From Pelomonas caseinilytica (GTDB lineage: Bacteria > Pseudomonadota > Gammaproteobacteria > Burkholderiales > Burkholderiaceae_C), in the NCBI RefSeq assembly GCF_021353235.1, contig NZ_JAJTWT010000003.1, forward strand, positions 434,001-498,000: a stretch of 64,000 bases of DNA, read 5' to 3'. Position 1 is the first letter of the stretch. Each line of letters opens with the position of its first letter. The notes below the pieces were generated by a model. The model ran no database searches. It saw only the letters and a program-made list of their open reading frames with translations, and had not been told where the DNA came from. Below, one piece after another: positions 2,096 to 12,832 of the stretch. The position numbers and the translations under genes were made by a program.

Positions 2096-2983
2096 ATGAA
2101 GAAAATTCTGCTCGCCGTGGCCCTGGTGGCCGGCACGGCCGCCGTGCACGCCGAAGACACGCTGAAGAAGATCAAGGACAGCGGCGTCATCACCATGGGC
2201 GTGCGCGAGTCTTCGGGCCTGTCCTACACCATCGGTGACGGCAAGTACGTCGGCTACCACATCGACGTCTGCCATCGCGTCATCTCCGACCTGGAGAAGG
2301 TGGTGGGCCGCAAGCTCGAAACCAAGTACCAGCCCGTCACCTCGGCCAACCGCATCCCGCTGACGGTCAACGGCACCGTGGACCTGGAGTGCGGCTCCAC
2401 CACCAACAACGTCGCCCGCCAGAAGGACGTCGCCTTCGCCGTGACCACCTACGTCGAGGAAGTGCGCATCGCCGTCAAGGCCAACTCCGGCATCACCTCC
2501 ATCAACCAGCTCAACGGCAAGACCATCGCGACGACCACCGGCACGACCTCGGTGCAGACGCTGCGCAAGCACGAGCGCGCCACCGGCATCGACTTCAAGG
2601 AAGTCTTCGGCAAGGACCACGCCGACAGCTTCCTGCTGCTCGACTCCGGCCGTGCCGACGCCTTCGTGATGGACGGCTCCATCCTGGCCAAGAACATCGC
2701 CACCTCCAAGAACCCGGCCGACTTCAAGATCGTCGGCGAGGTGCTGAGCGTCGAGCCCATCGCCATCATGATGCGCAAGGACGACCCCGCCTTCAAGAAG
2801 GCCGTGGACGACAGCATCAAGGGCATGATGAAGTCGGGCGAACTGGCCAAGATCTACGACAAGTGGTTCCTGCAGCCCATCCCGCCGACCAACACCAAGA
2901 TCGGCCTGCCGCTGTCCGCCGCGACGAAGGACGCCTGGGCCAACCCCAACGACAAGCCGATGGAAGACTACGCGAAGAAGTGA
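2096..2983 (+). CDS. gltI: Glutamate/aspartate-binding periplasmic protein
   Basis: A 295-residue family 3 solute-binding protein, receptor of an acidic amino acid ABC importer. A Sec signal peptide ends at VHA after residue 19. The mature domain begins DTLKKIKDSGVITMGVRESS, the usual opening of GltI/AatJ proteins, and has two Cys (DVCHR and LECGS) that can form the conserved disulfide. It is first in gltIJKL and followed by a hairpin likely to reduce read-through, giving the usual excess of binding protein. A GGAG ribosome site precedes ATG. Confidence 0.93.
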   Translation: MKKILLAVALVAGTAAVHAEDTLKKIKDSGVITMGVRESSGLSYTIGDGKYVGYHIDVCHRVISDLEKVVGRKLETKYQPVTSANRIPLTVNGTVDLECGSTTNNVARQKDVAFAVTTYVEEVRIAVKANSGITSINQLNGKTIATTTGTTSVQTLRKHERATGIDFKEVFGKDHADSFLLLDSGRADAFVMDGSILAKNIATSKNPADFKIVGEVLSVEPIAIMMRKDDPAFKKAVDDSIKGMMKSGELAKIYDKWFLQPIPPTNTKIGLPLSAATKDAWANPNDKPMEDYAKK

Positions 2984-3008
2984 TTCGCGCGTCCATCTGA
3001 ACGACCGC

Positions 3009-3036
3009 AAAGCGGGTGCCTGGCACCCGCTTTGTT
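3009..3036 (+). terminator. Attenuating hairpin between gltI and gltJ
   Basis: AAAGCGGGTG and CACCCGCTTT form a perfect 10-bp stem around a five-base loop, followed by a short GTTCT tract. Its position between the binding-protein gene and the permease genes fits a partial terminator or mRNA stabiliser that sets the receptor-to-permease ratio. Confidence 0.75.
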
Positions 3037-3070
3037 CTAAGAGGCTCCCGCAAGGGCTCGAGGAGGAACG

Positions 3071-3814
3071 ATGAGTTGGGACTGGCAGTTCTACTGCAAT
3101 GACACCGCCACCGGGGAGGCCGTCGCCGGCTGCTTCGGTCCGGGCGGCAAGGAGCAGACCTATCTGCAATGGATGCTCAACGCCTGGGGCTGGACGCTGA
3201 GCGTCTCGCTGCTGGCCCTGGTGCTCGCCCTGGTGGTGGGCTCGCTGATCGGCATCGCGCGCACGACGCCGAACAAATGGCTGGCCCGCTTCGGCGAGGC
3301 CTGGACGGAGTTGTTCCGCAACATCCCGCTGCTGGTCCAGGTCTTCCTCTGGTACCACGTGCTGCCTGCACTGTTCCCGACCCTGCGCGAGGCGCTGCCG
3401 CCGTCGGTGCTCATCGTCTTCGCCCTCGGCTTCTTCACCAGCGCCCGCATCGGCGAACAGGTCAAGGCCGGCATCCTGACGCTGCCGCGCGGCCAGCGCT
3501 ACGCCGGCCAGGCCCTGGGCATGACGCTGCCGCAGACCTATCGCTTCGTGCTGCTGCCCATGGCCTTTCGCATCGTCATCCCGCCGCTGACGAGCGAGAG
3601 CATGAACATCGTCAAGAACTCGGCGGTGGCCTTCGCGGTCAGCATCCCCGAGCTGGCGCAGTTCGCGCAGCAGGCCTCGGAGGAGACCTCGCACTTCGAG
3701 GAGATCTTCATCCCCGTCACGGCCCTCTATTTCATCTCGGCCTTCGTGATCAACCGGCTCGCCAAGTTCATCGAGGCGCGCGTGCGCATCCCCGGCACGG
3801 TGGGAGGCAAGTGA
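3071..3814 (+). CDS. gltJ: Glutamate/aspartate ABC transporter permease GltJ
   Basis: A 247-residue inner-membrane permease of the HisM/GltJ family. The extended N-terminus has a loop with two Cys, and about five membrane helices follow. The cytoplasmic EAA-type loop (GQALGMTLPQTYRFVLLP) that contacts the ATPase is intact, and the ELFRNIPLL segment is typical. It pairs with GltK to form the channel. GAGGAGGAACG is a strong ribosome site before ATG. Its stop overlaps the gltK start by one base. Confidence 0.92.
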   Translation: MSWDWQFYCNDTATGEAVAGCFGPGGKEQTYLQWMLNAWGWTLSVSLLALVLALVVGSLIGIARTTPNKWLARFGEAWTELFRNIPLLVQVFLWYHVLPALFPTLREALPPSVLIVFALGFFTSARIGEQVKAGILTLPRGQRYAGQALGMTLPQTYRFVLLPMAFRIVIPPLTSESMNIVKNSAVAFAVSIPELAQFAQQASEETSHFEEIFIPVTALYFISAFVINRLAKFIEARVRIPGTVGGK

Positions 3815-4479
3815 TGCTCAACCTCGACTACTCCTTCCTGAACTGGGCGGTCGTCCAGAGCTTCGTCGCCAAGGGCTTCTGGTTCTCGATCCAGCTGACC
3901 TTGGTGGCCATGATCGGCGGCATCATCCTCGGCACGCTGCTGGCAATGATGCGGCTGTCCAGCCACCGCTGGCTGTCGGCGCCGGCGGCCTTCTACGTCG
4001 ACACCCTGCGCTCCATCCCGCTGGTGATGGTGATCCTGTGGTTCTTCCTGCTCATTCCCAAGCTGCTCGGGCCGCTGGGCGGACAGATGTCGGCCTTCAT
4101 CACCTTCACGCTGTTCGAGGCCACCTATTACTCCGAGATCATGCGGGCGGGCATCCAGTCGGTGTCCAGGGGCCAGGTCAACGCGGGCTACGCCCTCGGC
4201 ATGAGCTACGGCCAGACCATGAAGCTCGTGGTGCTGCCCCAGGCCTTCCGCAACATGCTGCCGGTGCTGCTGACCCAGACCATCATCCTGTTCCAGGACA
4301 CCTCTCTGGTCTACGCGGTCGGCGAATATGACCTGCTCAAGGGTTTCGAGGTCGCCGGCAAGAACTTCAACCGCCCGGTCGAGACCTACCTGGTCGCCGC
4401 CGTCGTCTATTTCGTCATCTGCTTCACGCTGTCGCACCTCGTGCGCAACCTGCAGAAGAAGATCGCCATCATTCGCTGA
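3814..4479 (+). CDS. gltK: Glutamate/aspartate ABC transporter permease GltK
   Basis: A 221-residue HisM-type permease, partner of GltJ. It has the TLRSIPLVMVILWFF signature and the EAA loop (GYALGMSYGQTMKLVVLPQA), with about five membrane helices. ATG at 3814 lies inside the gltJ stop (TGATG), so translation is probably coupled. A GTG three bases upstream is an alternative start. Confidence 0.92.
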   Translation: MLNLDYSFLNWAVVQSFVAKGFWFSIQLTLVAMIGGIILGTLLAMMRLSSHRWLSAPAAFYVDTLRSIPLVMVILWFFLLIPKLLGPLGGQMSAFITFTLFEATYYSEIMRAGIQSVSRGQVNAGYALGMSYGQTMKLVVLPQAFRNMLPVLLTQTIILFQDTSLVYAVGEYDLLKGFEVAGKNFNRPVETYLVAAVVYFVICFTLSHLVRNLQKKIAIIR

Positions 4480-4488
4480 GGTCCCGCT

Positions 4489-5223
4489 GTGATCGACATC
4501 AAGAACGTTTCCAAGTGGTACGGCGCCTTCCAGGTGCTGACCGATTGCACAACGTCCATCAAGAAGGGCGAGGTCGTCGTCGTCTGCGGGCCCTCGGGCT
4601 CGGGCAAGTCCACGCTGATCAAGACCGTCAACGCGCTGGAGCCCTTCCAGAAGGGCGACATCGTCGTCGACGGCATCTCCATCGCCGATCCCAAGACCAA
4701 CCTGCCCAAGCTGCGCTCGCGCGTCGGCATGGTCTTCCAGCACTTCGAGCTCTTCCCTCACCTGTCGGTGACCGAGAACCTGACCATCGCCCAGGTCAAG
4801 GTGCTGGGCCGCTCGACGGACGATGCCAAGGCCCGCGGCCTGAAGATGCTGGACCGCGTCGGCCTCTCGGCCCACAAGGACAAGTTCCCCGGCCAGCTCT
4901 CCGGCGGCCAGCAGCAGCGCGTGGCCATCGCGCGGGCCCTGTCCATGGACCCCATCGTCATGCTCTTCGACGAGCCCACCTCGGCCCTGGACCCCGAGAT
5001 GGTCGGCGAGGTGCTCGACGTGATGGTGAAGCTCGCCCAGGAAGGCATGACCATGATGTGCGTGACGCACGAGATGGGCTTCGCCAAGCGCGTCAGCAAC
5101 CGTGTCATCTTCATGGACGCCGGCAAGATCATCGAGGACTGCTCCAGCACCGACTTCTTCGGCAAGCCCGAGGAGCGCTCGGCGCGCGCCAAGGACTTCC
5201 TCGCGAAGATCCTGCAGCACTGA
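4489..5223 (+). CDS. gltL: Glutamate/aspartate ABC transporter ATPase
   Basis: A 244-residue ATP-binding subunit with Walker [11 protein letters not shown]-loop in [11 protein letters not shown], signature LSGGQQQR, Walker [16 protein letters not shown] and the switch His in CVTHEMGFA. These are the polar amino acid importer (PAAT) features. It starts with GTG nine bases after the gltK stop. It is last in the operon and followed by a terminator. Confidence 0.94.
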
Positions 5224-6130: not shown

Positions 6131-7051
6131 ATGTCGACCAATCTCGACCTGAGCGCCTTGCGTGTCTTCCTCCAGGTGGCGGAGCTGGCCCATTTCAGCC
6201 GCGCGGCCGACGAGCTCGGCCTGCCCAAGGGGCGTGTCAGCCAGGTGGTGCGCGAGCTGGAGGCCCGGCTGGGCACACGCCTGTTTCAGCGCACGACCCG
6301 GCGCGTCAGCCTCACGCCCGACGGCGAGCTGCTGGCCGAGCGCGCCCGCGGCCTGTTGGCCGATGCCGGCGAGATCGAAGCCTTGTTCCAGCAGGATCGC
6401 CAGCTCTCGGGCCGCCTGCGCGCCGACCTGCCGGTGCGCCTGGCCTTGGACGTGGTGCTGCCGGCTCTCCCTGGCTTTCTCGACGCCCATCCCGGCCTGC
6501 AGGTCGAGATCAGTTGCACGGACCGGCGTGTCGACCTCGTCGAGGAGGGCTTCGACTGCGTGCTGCGCGTCGGCGCCGTGCACGATGCCATGCTGGTCGC
6601 CCGGCCGCTGGGACAGCTGCGCATGATGAACGTCGCCAGCCCGGCCTACCTCGCGCACCACGGCACGCCGGCCACGCCCGCCGATCTGCTGGCCCAGGGC
6701 CACGAACTGGTGCACTACAGCCAGACCTGGGCCGACCGCCGTCCGCGCTTCGACTGGGTCGACGGCGATGGCCGGCCGCACAGCCTGCACCTGCCGGCCC
6801 GGGTGAGCGTCAACCACACCGATGCCTACGAGGTCGCCGCCCTGGGCGGCATGGGCATCGTGCAGGCGCCGTGCGTGGGCCTGCGGGCCGCGGTGGCGGA
6901 CGGGCGGCTCGTGCGCATCCTGCCCGGCTACGAGCCCGCGCCGCTGCCCGTCAACCTTGTCATGAGTCAGCGCCGCCACACCCCGCGGCGGGCCCGCGTC
7001 TTCATGGACTGGCTGGCAGCGCTGCTGGCCGGGCATCTGGACGACGCCTAA
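6131..7051 (+). CDS. LysR-family transcriptional regulator
   Basis: A 306-residue LysR regulator. The N-terminal HTH (LSALRVFLQVAELAHFSRAADEL) and following wing are intact, as is the effector domain. An in-frame ATG at 6116 would add five residues; 6131 gives the usual spacing before the DLSALRVF segment. The intergenic stretch 6038-6130 is AT-richer than its surroundings and should hold both divergent promoters and the operator. The CrgA-like branch of LysR proteins often controls a divergent dehydrogenase, which fits the neighbour. Confidence 0.87.
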   Translation: MSTNLDLSALRVFLQVAELAHFSRAADELGLPKGRVSQVVRELEARLGTRLFQRTTRRVSLTPDGELLAERARGLLADAGEIEALFQQDRQLSGRLRADLPVRLALDVVLPALPGFLDAHPGLQVEISCTDRRVDLVEEGFDCVLRVGAVHDAMLVARPLGQLRMMNVASPAYLAHHGTPATPADLLAQGHELVHYSQTWADRRPRFDWVDGDGRPHSLHLPARVSVNHTDAYEVAALGGMGIVQAPCVGLRAAVADGRLVRILPGYEPAPLPVNLVMSQRRHTPRRARVFMDWLAALLAGHLDDA

Positions 7052-7070
7052 GGCCGAGCGTCCTGCCGGG

Positions 7071-8267
7071 CTAGAGCTTCACCGGCCCGTCGATGCTCGT
7101 CGCCACCGCCGCCTTGGCCTGCTGCTGGCGCACCCGGTCGAGATAGCCCTCGGAGCGCTGCAACTGCTCCTGGATGAGCTTGTTGTTGGTGCCCATGGTC
7201 TCGATGGCCTTGCTGCGGAAGCTGTCCATCGCGTCCATGGCCTGGAAGGTCTGGTCGAACATGGACTGGATCTGCTGGATGCCCAGCATGGGGTTGGATG
7301 AGAACTCGGCCGTCGCGTCCACATGCTGGTTCAGGGCCGTGCCGGTCTGGTTGATGAGGTCGCCGATGGTCTTGTTGACGCCCTGCAGCATCTGCATGAC
7401 CTCGATCTGGTTGCCGGTGGCGCGGGCCACGGTCTGGGCCACGGCCAGGGCGCTCATGCCGGTGGTGGCGACGCGGTCGCAGCCGATCATCATTTCTCGG
7501 CCGGTCTTCTTCAGCACATCCAGCGCCAGATAGCCGTTCACGCAGACGGCCTGCTGGGTCTGGATGTCGGCCAGGTTCTGGCGGGCGTAGAACAGCACCT
7601 CCTGCTCCAGCGCCTTGGCCTTCATCGGGTCGGTGGCCTGCAGCTGCTGCACACGGCCGGCCAGGCGCTCGTCCAGCACGCGGGCGAAGCGCGCGGCGGC
7701 GGCGAGCTTCTGCATCGCGTCCCAGAGCTTGGCGCGCGTGGCCTCGATGTCGACGACGTCGCGCTGGATGTCGTCCTTGGCCGCATAGAGCTGGGTCATG
7801 GCCGTCTGCAGCTGCGAGCTGGCGGACTGGAAGCGGCGGAAGTAGGCCTCCAGCTTGTTGCCGAAGGGGATCAGCCCCAACAGCTTGCGCGGCTGCAGCA
7901 GGTCGCCGTCCTTTCCGGGGTTGAGTTCGTCGAGCTGGCCGCGAATGGCGGCGATGGCCTTGTAGGCCGGCGTGTCCGTGGCGCCGACGAAGTTGCGCTG
8001 CATCAGGCTGCCCTGCATCAGGCCGGCGGCCACGCCGATCTCCTGGCGGCCGAGCTGGAAGGCGCTGTCGAGCTTGGCCTTGAAGGGCTCGCTGTGCAGA
8101 TCCTCCTTCTCCAGCGCCTCGATGAAGCGTTGCACCTGCTCGTCCACCTTGTCGGCCACCTCCGCCTTGAGCGGCACCGCCTCGACGGCCTGGACCGGCT
8201 GCACCGGCGTGATGACCTCCGGCGGGGTCAGCGTGAACGTGGGGGCAGCGGTCGTCGTCGTGCTCAT
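7071..8267 (-). CDS. telA: TelA/KlaA-family toxic anion resistance protein
   Basis: A 398-residue TelA-family protein (tellurite/toxic anion resistance, Pfam TelA). After a Pro/Val-rich N-terminus it is almost wholly alpha-helical with long coiled segments, including FGNKLEAYFRRFQSASSQL and the conserved MIGCDRVATTGMSALAVAQTVA region. TelA proteins are cytosolic; their biochemical role is unknown, and they often accompany Ter or XpaC proteins. It is last in a four-gene operon and overlaps the preceding stop by four bases (ATGA). It converges on the LysR gene with no clear terminator between. Confidence 0.88.
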   Translation of the reverse strand: MSTTTTAAPTFTLTPPEVITPVQPVQAVEAVPLKAEVADKVDEQVQRFIEALEKEDLHSEPFKAKLDSAFQLGRQEIGVAAGLMQGSLMQRNFVGATDTPAYKAIAAIRGQLDELNPGKDGDLLQPRKLLGLIPFGNKLEAYFRRFQSASSQLQTAMTQLYAAKDDIQRDVVDIEATRAKLWDAMQKLAAAARFARVLDERLAGRVQQLQATDPMKAKALEQEVLFYARQNLADIQTQQAVCVNGYLALDVLKKTGREMMIGCDRVATTGMSALAVAQTVARATGNQIEVMQMLQGVNKTIGDLINQTGTALNQHVDATAEFSSNPMLGIQQIQSMFDQTFQAMDAMDSFRSKAIETMGTNNKLIQEQLQRSEGYLDRVRQQQAKAAVATSIDGPVKL

Positions 8268-8917
8268 GCGATGTCCTTGTTGCCGAACTTCTGGTTCAGG
8301 AATTCACTGTGGCGCAGGAAGGCTTGGGCGTCCTGCGAGGCGAGGTCGTCGCCGAGCTGTTCGACCTTGGTCTCCAGCTCGGCCAGCACGCCCTCGAAGG
8401 TGGTCTGGGCCGTCTTGCCATTGGCCAGCAGCTTGGTGGTGGCGAATTGCGGCGGGATGCTGAGATAGGTGTTCAGCGCCTGCGGCAGGTAGCTGATGGC
8501 GATGTGGCGGGCATGGAAGGTTTCCTGCAGGCTCAAGCTGCCCTTGCTGCGCTCCCACTGGTCGAGCAGGCCTTCCAGGCGCTTGCACAGATGCATGATG
8601 CGCTGGGCCAGCGGCGCGGGGATGCGTCCGCCGGGGTTGTGCTCGGTCAGTCCACGCACGCCGGCCAGGGCCCGGCCCATGGCCTCGCGGGCATCGCCAG
8701 CGTCATCGAACTGCAGAGCCTCCCAGGCGTCCTCCCGGGTGCTGGGCCAGCCCCACCACAGCGCGCCGCCGGCCAGGCCCGCCGCATAACCGAGCGCGGC
8801 GACACCCAGGCCCCAGCTGCCCAGGAAGCCCAAGCCCTTGAGCACCAGCACGCCGGTGGCCGCCAGCAGGCCGCACCAGTTGGCCGGTGCATTCAGCCAT
8901 CGCAGCAGACCACTCAT
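8264..8917 (-). CDS. XpaC-like membrane protein (TelA partner)
   Basis: A 217-residue protein. Two hydrophobic helices near the N-terminus (about residues 12-32 and 35-57) precede a helical cytoplasmic domain containing RIMHLCKRLEGLLDQWERS. This architecture and the position directly before telA match the XpaC family (5-bromo-4-chloroindolyl phosphate hydrolysis proteins), which precedes a TelA homologue in Bacillus. The assignment rests on context and topology rather than a catalytic motif. Both ends overlap neighbours by four bases, so expression is probably coupled. Confidence 0.6.
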   Translation of the reverse strand: MSGLLRWLNAPANWCGLLAATGVLVLKGLGFLGSWGLGVAALGYAAGLAGGALWWGWPSTREDAWEALQFDDAGDAREAMGRALAGVRGLTEHNPGGRIPAPLAQRIMHLCKRLEGLLDQWERSKGSLSLQETFHARHIAISYLPQALNTYLSIPPQFATTKLLANGKTAQTTFEGVLAELETKVEQLGDDLASQDAQAFLRHSEFLNQKFGNKDIA

Positions 8918-10575
8918 TGATAGGCCCGGATGTCCTTGAATACCGCGTACAGCGGCGTCTTGCGCGCGTCGAAGACCTTGCCGCCGGTGATCTCCACCAG
9001 GGCCTTCAGGTCGCCTGCGTCGGCCTCGCCGAACAGCACCATGAAGACGGGGATGCCGCGCACGTCCTCCGGCAACTGTTCGTAGGCGCGGCGGAAGTCC
9101 TCCAGGCGCCGGCCCGTATTGCTCTTGCCGTCGGTGAAGGCGACGACCGAGTACTGGTAGTCGGGGTTGCGCTTGCGCTCCTCCAGCATGTTCTGCAGGC
9201 CGGCCAGCACGGCATCGTAGAGGGCCGTGCCACCAGTCATCTGCAGCTCGTCGGCCGCGTCGCGCACCCGCTTGAGCTCGGCCAGCTTGGCGTCGGTGTC
9301 GGTCTGCGGTCGCACGCCCTTGGCCACCTTGCTGCCGGCCGGGATCTCGAAGGCGATGGGCTCGCGCACCCGGTCGCTGAAGGGCAGGAACCACAGGCGC
9401 TCGCGGCTGGTCAGCTTGGCGACGCGGCCGGTCAGCGAGGCGTCGGCGCCGGCCAGGTAGTGGATGGCTTCCACGAGCTGCTCTCGGCGCTTGCCCTGCA
9501 TGCTGCCGCTGGTGTCCAGCACGAAGGTGCTGGCGATGGGCTTGCGGAACTCGTTGAGGTAGGCGTCGATGAGGCCGTCGGCCAGCTGGCGGTCGGGCGA
9601 GAAGGGCAGCTCCACCTGGAAACCGCGGGCCGGCAGGATGTCGGCGACCTGCGCCGCCACCTCGGCGCGCATCGGGCGGCGCAGGGTCTGCCTGGCCAGC
9701 CACAGCTGGGCGGCATCGCCCTTGAGGTACTCGACCACTTTCAGGTAGTCGGCGCGGCGCGCGTCGTTCAGCAGCATGAAGGGGTAGTCGGCCGTCGTCA
9801 CACCCTCGAAGGGGTAGATCAGGTGCAGGGGCTCGCGCAGCTTGCCGCTGGCGTTGAGCGAGAGCAGCCAGCTCTCGTAATTGATGAAGGCATTGGCCCG
9901 CGTGCCCTGTTGCTTGATGAACTGCTCGGCGAGGTAGGTCGAGTTGTCGCCGACGATCTTGTAGCCCTTCAGGAAGTCGGCAATCGCGCCGCGGTCCACG
10001 TCGGCCGCGGAGAGTGCCTCGCCCTTGCCGCCGGCTGCGGCCACCACGCCCAGCAGCGCCATGAAGCCCTGGTTGCTGGTGGCCGGGTTGGACAGGGCGT
10101 ACTGCAGCTTGCCGGCCTTGGCGGCACGGGTGATGTCGGCCCAGGTCAGCTTGGCGTCGGGCTTGTCCCAGCCGTTCCTGGCGGCGTCGCTCTTGCTGAC
10201 GCCGACGGCCATGGGCGACAGCATGATCTTTTCCTGCAGCTTGACCTTGCCCTGTCCGGCCGCGTCGCTGAGCAGGTATTTCGCATTGGCGAACCAGGCC
10301 ACGTCGGGCCGGGGTTTGTCGCCGCTGTCCCCGCCGAGGACCTCCTGCGTGCTCTCCATCGTGCCGCCGAAGCGGAACTGCACGTCCACGCCGGTGGCCT
10401 GGCGGATCTGTGCGGCCAGGGGCTCGATGTCCTTGAGGTCGCTGGTGGCCAGCACACGCAGCGCGGGGCCGGCGCTTCGGGGCGCTTCGGGAGCGGGTTG
10501 AACGACAGGCTCGGGCTTCTTGCCGCAGGCGGCCAGCAGCGCAAAGCTCAACAGCAAAAGGGCGCGGCGCATCAC
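8914..10575 (-). CDS. Lipoprotein with substrate-binding and VWA domains
   Basis: 553 residues. A lipoprotein signal with lipobox LAAC places the protein in the envelope. Residues about 40-310 resemble an ABC-type extracellular binding protein (RVLATSDLKDI, RPDVAWFANAKYLL). Residues about 345-550 form a von Willebrand A domain with MIDAS motif DTSGS, the TGGT threonine and FTDGK. The fusion suggests a periplasmic ligand or metal sensor that docks to partners. It overlaps both neighbours by four bases. Families of this architecture are annotated only as substrate-binding and VWA domain-containing; no function is established. Confidence 0.82.
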   Translation of the reverse strand: MMRRALLLLSFALLAACGKKPEPVVQPAPEAPRSAGPALRVLATSDLKDIEPLAAQIRQATGVDVQFRFGGTMESTQEVLGGDSGDKPRPDVAWFANAKYLLSDAAGQGKVKLQEKIMLSPMAVGVSKSDAARNGWDKPDAKLTWADITRAAKAGKLQYALSNPATSNQGFMALLGVVAAAGGKGEALSAADVDRGAIADFLKGYKIVGDNSTYLAEQFIKQQGTRANAFINYESWLLSLNASGKLREPLHLIYPFEGVTTADYPFMLLNDARRADYLKVVEYLKGDAAQLWLARQTLRRPMRAEVAAQVADILPARGFQVELPFSPDRQLADGLIDAYLNEFRKPIASTFVLDTSGSMQGKRREQLVEAIHYLAGADASLTGRVAKLTSRERLWFLPFSDRVREPIAFEIPAGSKVAKGVRPQTDTDAKLAELKRVRDAADELQMTGGTALYDAVLAGLQNMLEERKRNPDYQYSVVAFTDGKSNTGRRLEDFRRAYEQLPEDVRGIPVFMVLFGEADAGDLKALVEITGGKVFDARKTPLYAVFKDIRAYQ

Positions 10576-11696
10576 TGGTTCATCTCCCGGCTGACGATGT
10601 CGATCATTTCAAACATCAGGTCGAAGCCCGGCGGGTCGATGACCTGGTTCAGCTTCACATCCACGGCCAGGCCCGCGGTCTTGGCGGCCTCGGCGAAGGC
10701 GGCGGTGTCGCCGGTGCGAAACCCCTGCTCGAGCGCGACGGCCTGCAGGGTCTTGTTCGTCGACAGCAGCTCGGCAAGCTGCCTGCCGCGCTCGTTCAGC
10801 GCCACCAGCACCCATTTGTTGACGATGGTGGGTTGGGGATACATCAGCACCATCTCGGGCCGAACGCCGCCCTTGAGCGCCTGGGCCACCATCTGGGCCT
10901 CGTAGATGAAGGTCAGCGGCGTCTTGCCCATGCCGATGGACAGGTAGTCGTCGAAGGCGCCGTTGACATAGTTCTCCTGGAAGCCCTGGCGCTTGAACAG
11001 CTCGGCGAGCTGGGTCGCGTACTTCTGGGCCGCCGTGCGGTCGGCCACGACGTCGCCGTTGAGCGCGGCCGAGGTGAGGGCCAGATACATGGCCGCGGAG
11101 TTGCTGCGGCGGATGTCGGTGGTGCTGACCAGCACGCTGCGCGACACCGCGTAGTCGCCGCTGGCCTTCAGGTCGCGCCAGCGCTGCTTGGCCAGCATGG
11201 CCTGGGTCAGCTTCTCCATGTCCAGGCTGTAGACCTTGGGCGCCTGGGCCTTGGCCATGCCGTTGGCGGCCAGGATCTTGGCGACAGGCTCCCAGGAGGC
11301 CACGACCAGCGGCGTGTGGAAGGGCGAGGTCTGGGTCGCGTTCCTGCCCGCCTTGCGGGCGGCGTCGGCAATCATGTTGGCGGCGACGACGCCGCTGGCG
11401 ATGAAGAAGTCGGGCTGGTCGGCCGTGCCGATCTTGGCGGCCATGTCGCGGCTGCCGACGCGGGCCACCTGCACGGGCAGCCTGGCGGCGCCCAGCACCT
11501 TGGCGACGCGATCGTCCTTGAAGAAGGCCTCCACGTCGACGGCGATCAGCCCCTTGAGCGGCTCGGCGCTCGCGATCGCGGCCTGTTCCTGCGCGATCTG
11601 CTTGTGCTCCTCGTTGCTGCGCAGCGCAAAGAAGAGGGCGCCGCCGAAGAGCGCCAACAGGACCAGGGTGCCGAGCAGGCGTTTCGCGTTGTTCAT
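10572..11696 (-). CDS. Membrane-anchored substrate-binding-like protein, first gene of TelA operon
   Basis: A 374-residue protein. An N-terminal hydrophobic segment (LLGTLVLLALFGGALFFAL) is followed by a periplasmic domain with the look of an extracellular solute-binding protein (DQPDFFIASG, LTFIYEAQMV, MYPQPTIVNKWVLVAL). There is no lipobox, so it is probably an uncleaved anchor. The downstream VWA lipoprotein has a related fold, so the operon encodes two binding-like proteins without permease or ATPase. It is divergent from pyrC with 83 bp between the starts. Confidence 0.7.
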   Translation of the reverse strand: MNNAKRLLGTLVLLALFGGALFFALRSNEEHKQIAQEQAAIASAEPLKGLIAVDVEAFFKDDRVAKVLGAARLPVQVARVGSRDMAAKIGTADQPDFFIASGVVAANMIADAARKAGRNATQTSPFHTPLVVASWEPVAKILAANGMAKAQAPKVYSLDMEKLTQAMLAKQRWRDLKASGDYAVSRSVLVSTTDIRRSNSAAMYLALTSAALNGDVVADRTAAQKYATQLAELFKRQGFQENYVNGAFDDYLSIGMGKTPLTFIYEAQMVAQALKGGVRPEMVLMYPQPTIVNKWVLVALNERGRQLAELLSTNKTLQAVALEQGFRTGDTAAFAEAAKTAGLAVDVKLNQVIDPPGFDLMFEMIDIVSREMNQ

Positions 11697-11779
11697 GATG
11701 GCGGGAAGCGGTCTCCTTTTCGATCAGGTGGGGAGTGTGACCGAAGCTGGACCGGGCGCGCAGACGACAATCCGGTTTT

Positions 11780-12832
11780 ATGACCCAAGCGCCCTTACAG
11801 CTCACTCTCACCCGGCCTGACGACTGGCACTTGCACCTGCGCGACGAGGCGGCGCTTGCCAGCGTCCTGCCCTACACCGCGCGCCAGTTCGCCCGCGCCA
11901 TCGTCATGCCCAACCTGCGCCCGCCGGTGACGACGGCCGCCCAGGCCCAGGCCTATCGCGAGCGCATCCTGGCGGCCCTGCCCGAAGAAGGCCCGGGCAG
12001 CGACTTCCAGCCCCTCATGACCCTCTATCTCACCGACAACACGCCGGTCGACGAGATCCGGCGGGCCAAGGAGGCCGGCGTCGTCGCCCTCAAGCTCTAC
12101 CCGGCCGGTGCCACCACCAACAGCGATGCCGGCGTCACCGACCTGCGCAAGACTTACGCCACGCTCGAAGCCATGCAGCGCGAAGGCCTGCTGCTGCTGG
12201 TGCACGGCGAGGTGACCGACGGCGACGTCGACGTCTTCGACCGCGAGGCCGTCTTCGTCGAGCGCGTCATGAAGCCGCTGCGCGCGGCCATGCCCGAGCT
12301 CAAGGTGGTCTTCGAGCACATCACGACCAAGGAGGCGGCGCAGTACGTGACCGACAGCGACCGCTTCACGGCCGCCACCATCACGCCCCAGCACCTGCTC
12401 TACAACCGCAACGCCATCTTCACCGGCGGCCTGCGCCCGCACTACTACTGCCTGCCCGTGCTCAAGCGGGAGGAGCACCGCCAGGCCCTGCTCAAGGCCG
12501 CCGGTTCGGGAAGCCCGAAGTTCTTCCTCGGCACGGACAGCGCCCCCCACGCCGCCCAGCTCAAGGAGAACTCGGTCTGCGGTGCCGGCTGCTTCACGGC
12601 CATCTCGGCGCTGGAGCTCTATGCCGAGGCCTTCGAGGCCATCGGCGCCCTGGACAAGCTCGACGCCTTCGCCGGCCACCACGGGCCGGCCTTCTACGGT
12701 CTGCCGCGCAACACCGGCACCGTCACCCTCAAGCGCGAACCCTGGACCCTGCCCAGCGCCGTTCCCTTCGGCGAGGCGCAGCTCAAGCCGCTGCGCGGCG
12801 GCGAGACCCTGAACTGGAAACTGCTCGCATGA
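11780..12832 (+). CDS. pyrC: Dihydroorotase
   Basis: A 350-residue class II dihydroorotase, the third step of pyrimidine synthesis (carbamoyl-aspartate to dihydroorotate) in the cytosol. Metal ligands are visible: HLH at residues 17-19, the carboxylated Lys in [13 protein letters not shown], His in LLVHGEV and VFEHITT, and Asp in LGTDSAPH. Length equals the E. coli type. It heads a run of five overlapping genes; its stop overlaps the next start by four bases. Confidence 0.96.

Follow-up and report, generated by a model that had tools for sequence, protein, structure and literature searches.

A stretch of 64,000 nucleotides of the Pelomonas caseinilytica genome (contig NZ_JAJTWT010000003.1, positions 434,001 to 498,000; hereafter the window, whose own coordinates are used for its features) carries four consecutive genes, here called A, B, C, and D, which are inherited together and all lie on the minus strand, from 11696 down to 7071. 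They encode, in this order, a protein with a predicted solute-binding fold, a lipoprotein that fuses a solute-binding domain to a VWA domain, a small protein that profile comparison places as a distant relative of XpaC, and a TelA protein (374, 552, 217, and 398 amino acids, respectively). From a functional perspective, we would put the chances at about even that the four products make up one envelope-stress assembly in which the binding domains serve as receptors rather than as transporter parts.

Results

The four genes are inherited together, which speaks for this proposal. Across 150 family genomes, sampled evenly and with that of the window among them, A and B share an identical set of 15. 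C is present in all of these, with an additional weak match in a further genome (G367), and D was found in 14 of them as well as in G367. Moreover, B and a copy of D were on one contig, a few kilobases apart, in all 14 of the 14 genomes having both (Fisher p for B with D = 1.2e-17 over the 150 genomes, relatedness ignored), so that the neighborhood survey proposed by the first-pass annotation as a check did find the genes together. The order in these 14 genomes is A-B-C-D in eight (one with A on another contig) and A-D-B-C in four, with D on the opposite strand in the remaining two. Consistent figures were obtained from 35 named loci found through B, in which tblastn recovered A in 33, C in 34, and D in 27: the two loci without A (L027 and L035) are on contigs that start inside B, the single locus without C (L014) is on a contig that ends 373 bases past B, and 21 of the 27 copies of D are located behind C on the same strand. 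A follow-up of loci lacking D in the flank covered six genomes, L014 and L035 being excluded, and four of these six have D elsewhere, including one (L025) whose contig carries both C and D, about 9 kb apart.

Beyond this sample, TelA passed the Pfam cut-off in 23 of 229 genomes of the class, and B was detected at 1e-12 or better in 6 of 299 genomes of the phylum, with one full-length match other than the window, in the same family, at a locus (L171) ordered A-D-B-C. A search of plasmid records with B returned eight records. Among them, profile hits (with E-values that refer to a small set of reading frames) delineated A-D-B-C in Nonomuraea gerenzanensis (Actinomycetota, 11.85-Mb record), in Variovorax sp. 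SRS16 plasmid 2, and in Sphaerotilus sulfidivorans, and A-B-C near transposases on a Deinococcus taeanensis plasmid (L138), a plasmid record without a D match; two further Variovorax plasmids share the B match. On the basis of these records, the set is kept through a change of gene order, in diderms as well as in a monoderm, and its presence in the monoderm Nonomuraea implies that the module should not need an outer membrane. Among relatives, both the flanks of the module and its gene order (two orders) vary. On the SRS16 plasmid, the A-D-B-C copy (L141) is flanked by a flotillin/YqiJ pair on one side and by Wadjet-annotated genes on the other.

Gene D (7071..8267, minus strand) encodes TelA, as the first-pass annotation had it, the PF05816 model being matched with 192.7 bits (cut-off of 30 bits) over profile positions 4-332 of 332. 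It is the sole TelA match in the window's genome at E 0.001, and the hydropathy scan indicated no hydrophobic segment. To place this gene among its usual partners, we looked at 27 genomes chosen for TelA or for the module: the XpaC/Halogen_Hydrol model (PF10112) gave 17 matches in 16 of these genomes, each directly upstream of a same-strand TelA gene, with 88-387 bases between the two profile hits. In the class sample, 8 of the 25 TelA places over cut-off are without a PF10112 match. C, which adjoins TelA in 21 of the 27 named loci with D, occupies the same partner place here. In two loci (L125 of G263 and L126 of G236), identity with the window's proteins is about 40% for A and B but 62% for D, a difference that suggests exchange of D between module types. 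With regard to the joint evolution of the proteins, Mantel correlations among A to D range from 0.91 to 0.98 (n=31, three likely duplicate rows dropped), values that mostly reflect shared descent and are no proof of interaction; in the TelA tree, one row that is probably in a wrong frame (T_L052) is disregarded.

The relation of gene C (8264..8917, minus strand) to XpaC, likewise proposed by the first-pass annotation, is upheld by profile-profile comparison but not by Pfam. Aligned by hhalign with 17 XpaC proteins, a broadened C alignment reached a probability of 90.2 and a score of 53.1 over 185 collinear columns, against scores of 10.9-21.2 for reversed, shuffled, and unrelated-family controls; the broad alignments of both C and A contain sequences picked by profile hits, which amounts to a mild selection. 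On this basis, C is, as judged from its profile, a distant XpaC relative. The protein is identified by none of Pfam, NCBIfam, and PADLOC, its structure model returned no Foldseek match at E 0.001, and the database rows akin to it that bear names are mostly called hypothetical protein, with three XpaC-type UniRef names among the best 120 listed. The model (predicted local distance difference test score, pLDDT, of 73.2) comprises two N-terminal helices, at residues 11-28 and 35-54, followed by a helical domain. By sequence and model, C is a membrane protein, and the two N-terminal helices may form a transmembrane hairpin; the pLDDT of this part is 51-64, and the hydropathy scan gives a single segment, at residues 14-33.

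Gene A (10572..11696, minus strand) is predicted to encode a membrane-anchored class II solute-binding-protein fold. A hydrophobic segment spans residues 4-28, and the structure model displays the two-lobed architecture of class II binding proteins across the mature protein, from about residue 44 to 374. Pfam has no family over cut-off for this protein, and NCBIfam and PADLOC leave it unidentified too. Profile-profile comparison links it to the solute-binding domain of B, with a probability of 96.5 when its alignment is broadened but only 6.3 when that alignment is narrow; A is thus, as far as profiles can tell, a distant paralogue of that domain. The low-confidence loops of the A model, at residues 185-192 and 238-248, coincide with or adjoin stretches of strong conservation and could, in the model, provide contacts with a ligand or a partner. 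For the alignments of all four proteins, sequence searches of the PDB gave no credible match (best E about 0.1).

Gene B (8914..10572, minus strand) is read as 552 amino acids from its ATG or as 553 from a GTG at 10575. The lipobox pattern (LAAC, Cys16) is followed by a solute-binding domain at residues 39-290 (SBP_bac_11, 58.7 bits for a cut-off of 25 bits) and a VWA domain at residues 350-536 (36.6 bits). VWA domains can carry a metal ion-dependent adhesion site (MIDAS) of the form DxSxS...T...D. In B, the corresponding residues D353, S355, S357, T449, and D481 are invariant in 28 aligned proteins and are retained by 93% or more of the rows without a gap in a broader set of 49, which bears out the earlier description of a lipoprotein fusing a binding domain to a MIDAS-containing VWA domain. 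This architecture is shared with proteins whose annotation reads “substrate-binding and VWA domain-containing protein”, a name borne by the Variovorax copies. A Streptomyces plasmid protein of that annotation shares 24% identity with the Nonomuraea B; for the stretch of 13.4 kb that contains it, no TelA is listed in the gene table of that collection, which is incomplete.

The coordinates and the four reading frames initially assigned to the operon are correct, and the junctions between them needed one amendment. All three had been described as ATGA overlaps, which holds for B/C (8914..8917) and C/D (8264..8267) but not for A/B (10572..10575), which reads CAG-TGA-TG: B starts either at the GTG (GTGA, a four-base overlap) or at the next ATG (TGATG, a one-base overlap). 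As a TGA stop often yields such an overlap by itself, the same-strand junctions of relatives were compared, and an overlapping start of four or one bases is possible at 29 of 33 A/B, 13 of 31 B/C, and 14 of 21 C/D junctions; start/stop overlap is therefore common at A/B and C/D and no rule at B/C. Upstream of A, an 83-base gap (11697..11779, minus strand) with AAGGAG before A separates the operon from a divergent pyrC gene and is, from its sequence, a possible promoter region; the gap also holds a CACACT that recurs at a similar place in 12 of the 23 relatives compared, and a consensus scan of window positions 6900-12000 gave no sigma-70-type site. The convergent downstream gene is of LysR type (both neighbors being named by sequence reading). 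The genome carrying the window measures 5.98 Mb and its nearest named loci belong to Pelomonas/Roseateles, with a B identity of up to 92% in a listing that may omit the window's own record.

A domain fusion and a gene neighborhood connect C-like proteins to known envelope systems. In G136 (L081, 8442-13141), whose genome has no match to the B profile, a 378-amino-acid protein combines PspC with a pair of C-like domains. As called, its gene overlaps one of MscS type, and it is convergent with a D-type TelA gene. In G263 (L176, 8253-13909), a second C, an orphan with 46% identity to that of the window, is located immediately ahead of a set made of a 207-amino-acid-type membrane protein, a flotillin-like protein, and a DUF3686 ATPase. 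The same set follows A-B-C in a Ramlibacter locus (L025), where the flotillin-like protein is below the Pfam cut-off (18.6 vs 27 bits); the neighbor on the Variovorax plasmid is a clear flotillin. The PspC fusion and the flotillin-like neighbors point the same way, namely toward a putative role in envelope stress, the flotillin link being rare.

Finally, no permease or ATPase gene is inside the window's operon, in agreement with the first reading of the sequence, though an ABC (ATP-binding cassette) set is nearby. This set, with its own binding protein, is located at 2096-5223, beyond the LysR-type gene (gene starts read), and ABC-type genes also occur at 11908-13631 in L125 and at 11955-16415 in L128, the types differing among the three loci as read from gene starts.

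Discussion

The best and most economical account of these observations, which we would back at roughly even chances, is that a receptor arm formed by A and B is attached to an XpaC–TelA membrane-protection pair. Regarding topology and the direction of the signal, A and B would bind a small ligand or a damage-related molecule outside the cytoplasm, and the metal-dependent VWA face of B would grip A or another partner. C may then pass the signal to the cytoplasmic side, where D together with C would protect or remodel the membrane under envelope stress, as is thought for the xpaC-telA pairs of Firmicutes. The envelope-stress role is reached indirectly, by analogy with the responses of canonical xpaC-telA pairs and through the PspC fusion of C-like domains.

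Several observations weigh against this interpretation. As for the cohesion of the set, the module is rare (the 15 of 150 family genomes given above) and D is its loosest member: it is on the opposite strand in six of the 27 named loci having it, it was not found in two Rhizobacter genomes (L019 and L021) nor in G346, whose contig equals that of one of these two in length and which may thus be the same genome, and it occurs without A and B in G367 and G136. Among the 229 class genomes, the B and C profiles each retrieved a single match besides the window's genome, for B one limited to the VWA part and for C the PspC fusion of G136. In seven loci where TelA does not follow C on its strand, the gene behind it is instead of YiaA/B type (L029, L033, L127, L131, L132, L173, and L174; Pfam-checked in two). 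As for the identity of C, PF10112 was over its cut-off (29.8 bits) in 0 of 22 C proteins and in 0 of 9 more distant C-like proteins, when the positive control L145 scored 123.5 bits, and a profile built from Burkholderiales alone aligned with XpaC over 78 columns with a score of 35.5 and a probability of 39. The PF10112 misses weigh little because the genome search was positive in one of 14 control genomes, that of L. lactis and not that of B. subtilis. As for the neighborhood, the flotillin-like protein is away from C in the three other sampled genomes with both (G243, G246, and G369) and has no match in the window's genome at E 1e-30, and the window, L125, and L128 have ABC-type genes in the vicinity of the module. 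As a separate observation on the seven TelA–YiaA/B loci, a small C-like reading frame is nearby in five of them, and a DUF2145-type gene is also present in L029 and L131.

With regard to the proposed role of the XpaC–TelA pair, Firmicutes offer the closest likeness, with a TelA gene beside a small XpaC-type gene in the sigma-W, CesSR, and Listeria lmo1966-1967 systems. B. subtilis moreover has yceH, which we take to be a TelA paralogue. In this species, xpaC-yaaN is listed in the core sigma-W regulon and yceH in the secondary one (PMC3498285). In L. lactis, the transcriptome table of a CesSR study gives a ratio of 10.3 for an XpaC-like gene and 3.44 for telA1 (PMC3139573), and in Listeria, lmo1966-1967 is reported among the operons raised by garvicin KS, with a log2 value of 0.61 for lmo1967 (PMC12791056). 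Unlike the module described here, the xpaC-telA operons have no binding protein or VWA domain in the portions of these papers that present them; furthermore, D forms a divergent TelA branch, and C escapes the Pfam XpaC model. In KlaABC/TelAB of plasmid RK2, TelA (KlaB) is likewise part of a small operon, tied to tellurite tolerance. The phage shock and flotillin systems are a further point of comparison, linked by association through the PspC fusion of G136 and the flotillin-like neighbors of C in two lineages. The SPFH protein YdjI is reported as required for PspA recruitment in B. subtilis (PMC8581546). The difference is that no PspA, PspC, or SPFH protein was recognized beside the window's operon, among neighbors that were read and in part scanned.

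The rival that fares best holds that A and B bind a toxic oxyanion (tellurite, selenite, or molybdate-like) outside the cell and that C and D confer tolerance, which would make the module a system of oxyanion scavenging or resistance. TelA is indeed named after tellurite resistance. The binding domain of B belongs to SBP_bac_11, and the best Foldseek matches of the A model include molybdate- and sulfate-binding proteins. However, for the same model VIA ranks proteins that bind iron, thiamin, or sugars no lower than those that bind sulfate, so that the matches single out no ligand class, and no reductase or methyltransferase was noticed beside the module, where flanking genes are annotated in part. 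Besides, a Listeria mutant for lmo1967 (TelA) is quoted as having its susceptibility raised 4-fold for nisin and 2-fold for tellurite (PMC12791056 citing Collins 2010). Altogether, we find an oxyanion function doubtful. Somewhat more doubtful still is a role in metal-ion homeostasis, in which A and B would bind a metal or a chelate and the VWA and TelA parts would regulate or buffer its entry, as Z scores are similar for sugar- and sulfonate-binding proteins and no recurring metal transporter was noticed in the gene maps, which give gene starts only.

A third possibility is an ordinary ABC importer with its permease and ATPase encoded elsewhere, C and D being co-transcribed passengers. Binding proteins of the class II fold usually work with ABC importers, and ABC-type genes are found about 2 kb beyond D in the window and directly after C in L125 and L128. 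However, the sets of the window and of L128 own a binding protein and the L125 pair looks to be of another type, the window's set recurs in close relatives only (clusters c5 and c9), B carries a VWA domain, and C and D accompany A and B through order changes and across phyla. These points make a transporter decidedly unlikely, the ABC-type genes near the module in three loci notwithstanding. Least probable of all, and very much so, is a defense or mobile-element cargo module: plasmid copies exist in Variovorax (near the Wadjet-annotated genes), Sphaerotilus, and Deinococcus (near transposases), but no PADLOC family is convincing (best E 0.0097, for D), a search of 50,697 phage records with B, the one protein used there, gave no match, and the window's copy is a chromosome-type unit common to relatives.

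TelA, XpaC–TelA pairs, and SBP–VWA (solute-binding protein and VWA) proteins are already known as families or annotations. The work of Anantharaman and colleagues (2012) on Ter-dependent stress systems may contain a mention of TelA–VWA neighborhoods. Among the matches listed in the open-access literature, considered through titles and abstract openings and with subscription papers outside the scope, we found no description of the four-gene set, of the homology between A and B, or of the relation of C to XpaC. Under the receptor interpretation favored here, a further and more tentative proposal, which we believe somewhat less than we doubt it, is that the module may represent a previously undescribed class of ligand-gated envelope-stress receptors common to monoderms and diderms. 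Two diverged transporter-type binding proteins, one of them equipped with a MIDAS-containing VWA clasp, would have left transport to control an XpaC–TelA pair across the inner membrane, with connections to PspC, mechanosensitive channels, and flotillins.

To our knowledge, TelA and XpaC have been tied to envelope stress and are still without a mechanism. In this regard, their recurrence in one unit with two binding proteins and a MIDAS domain suggests what TelA and XpaC may respond to; if this proposal is true, solute-binding proteins would here be acting as receptors without a transporter.

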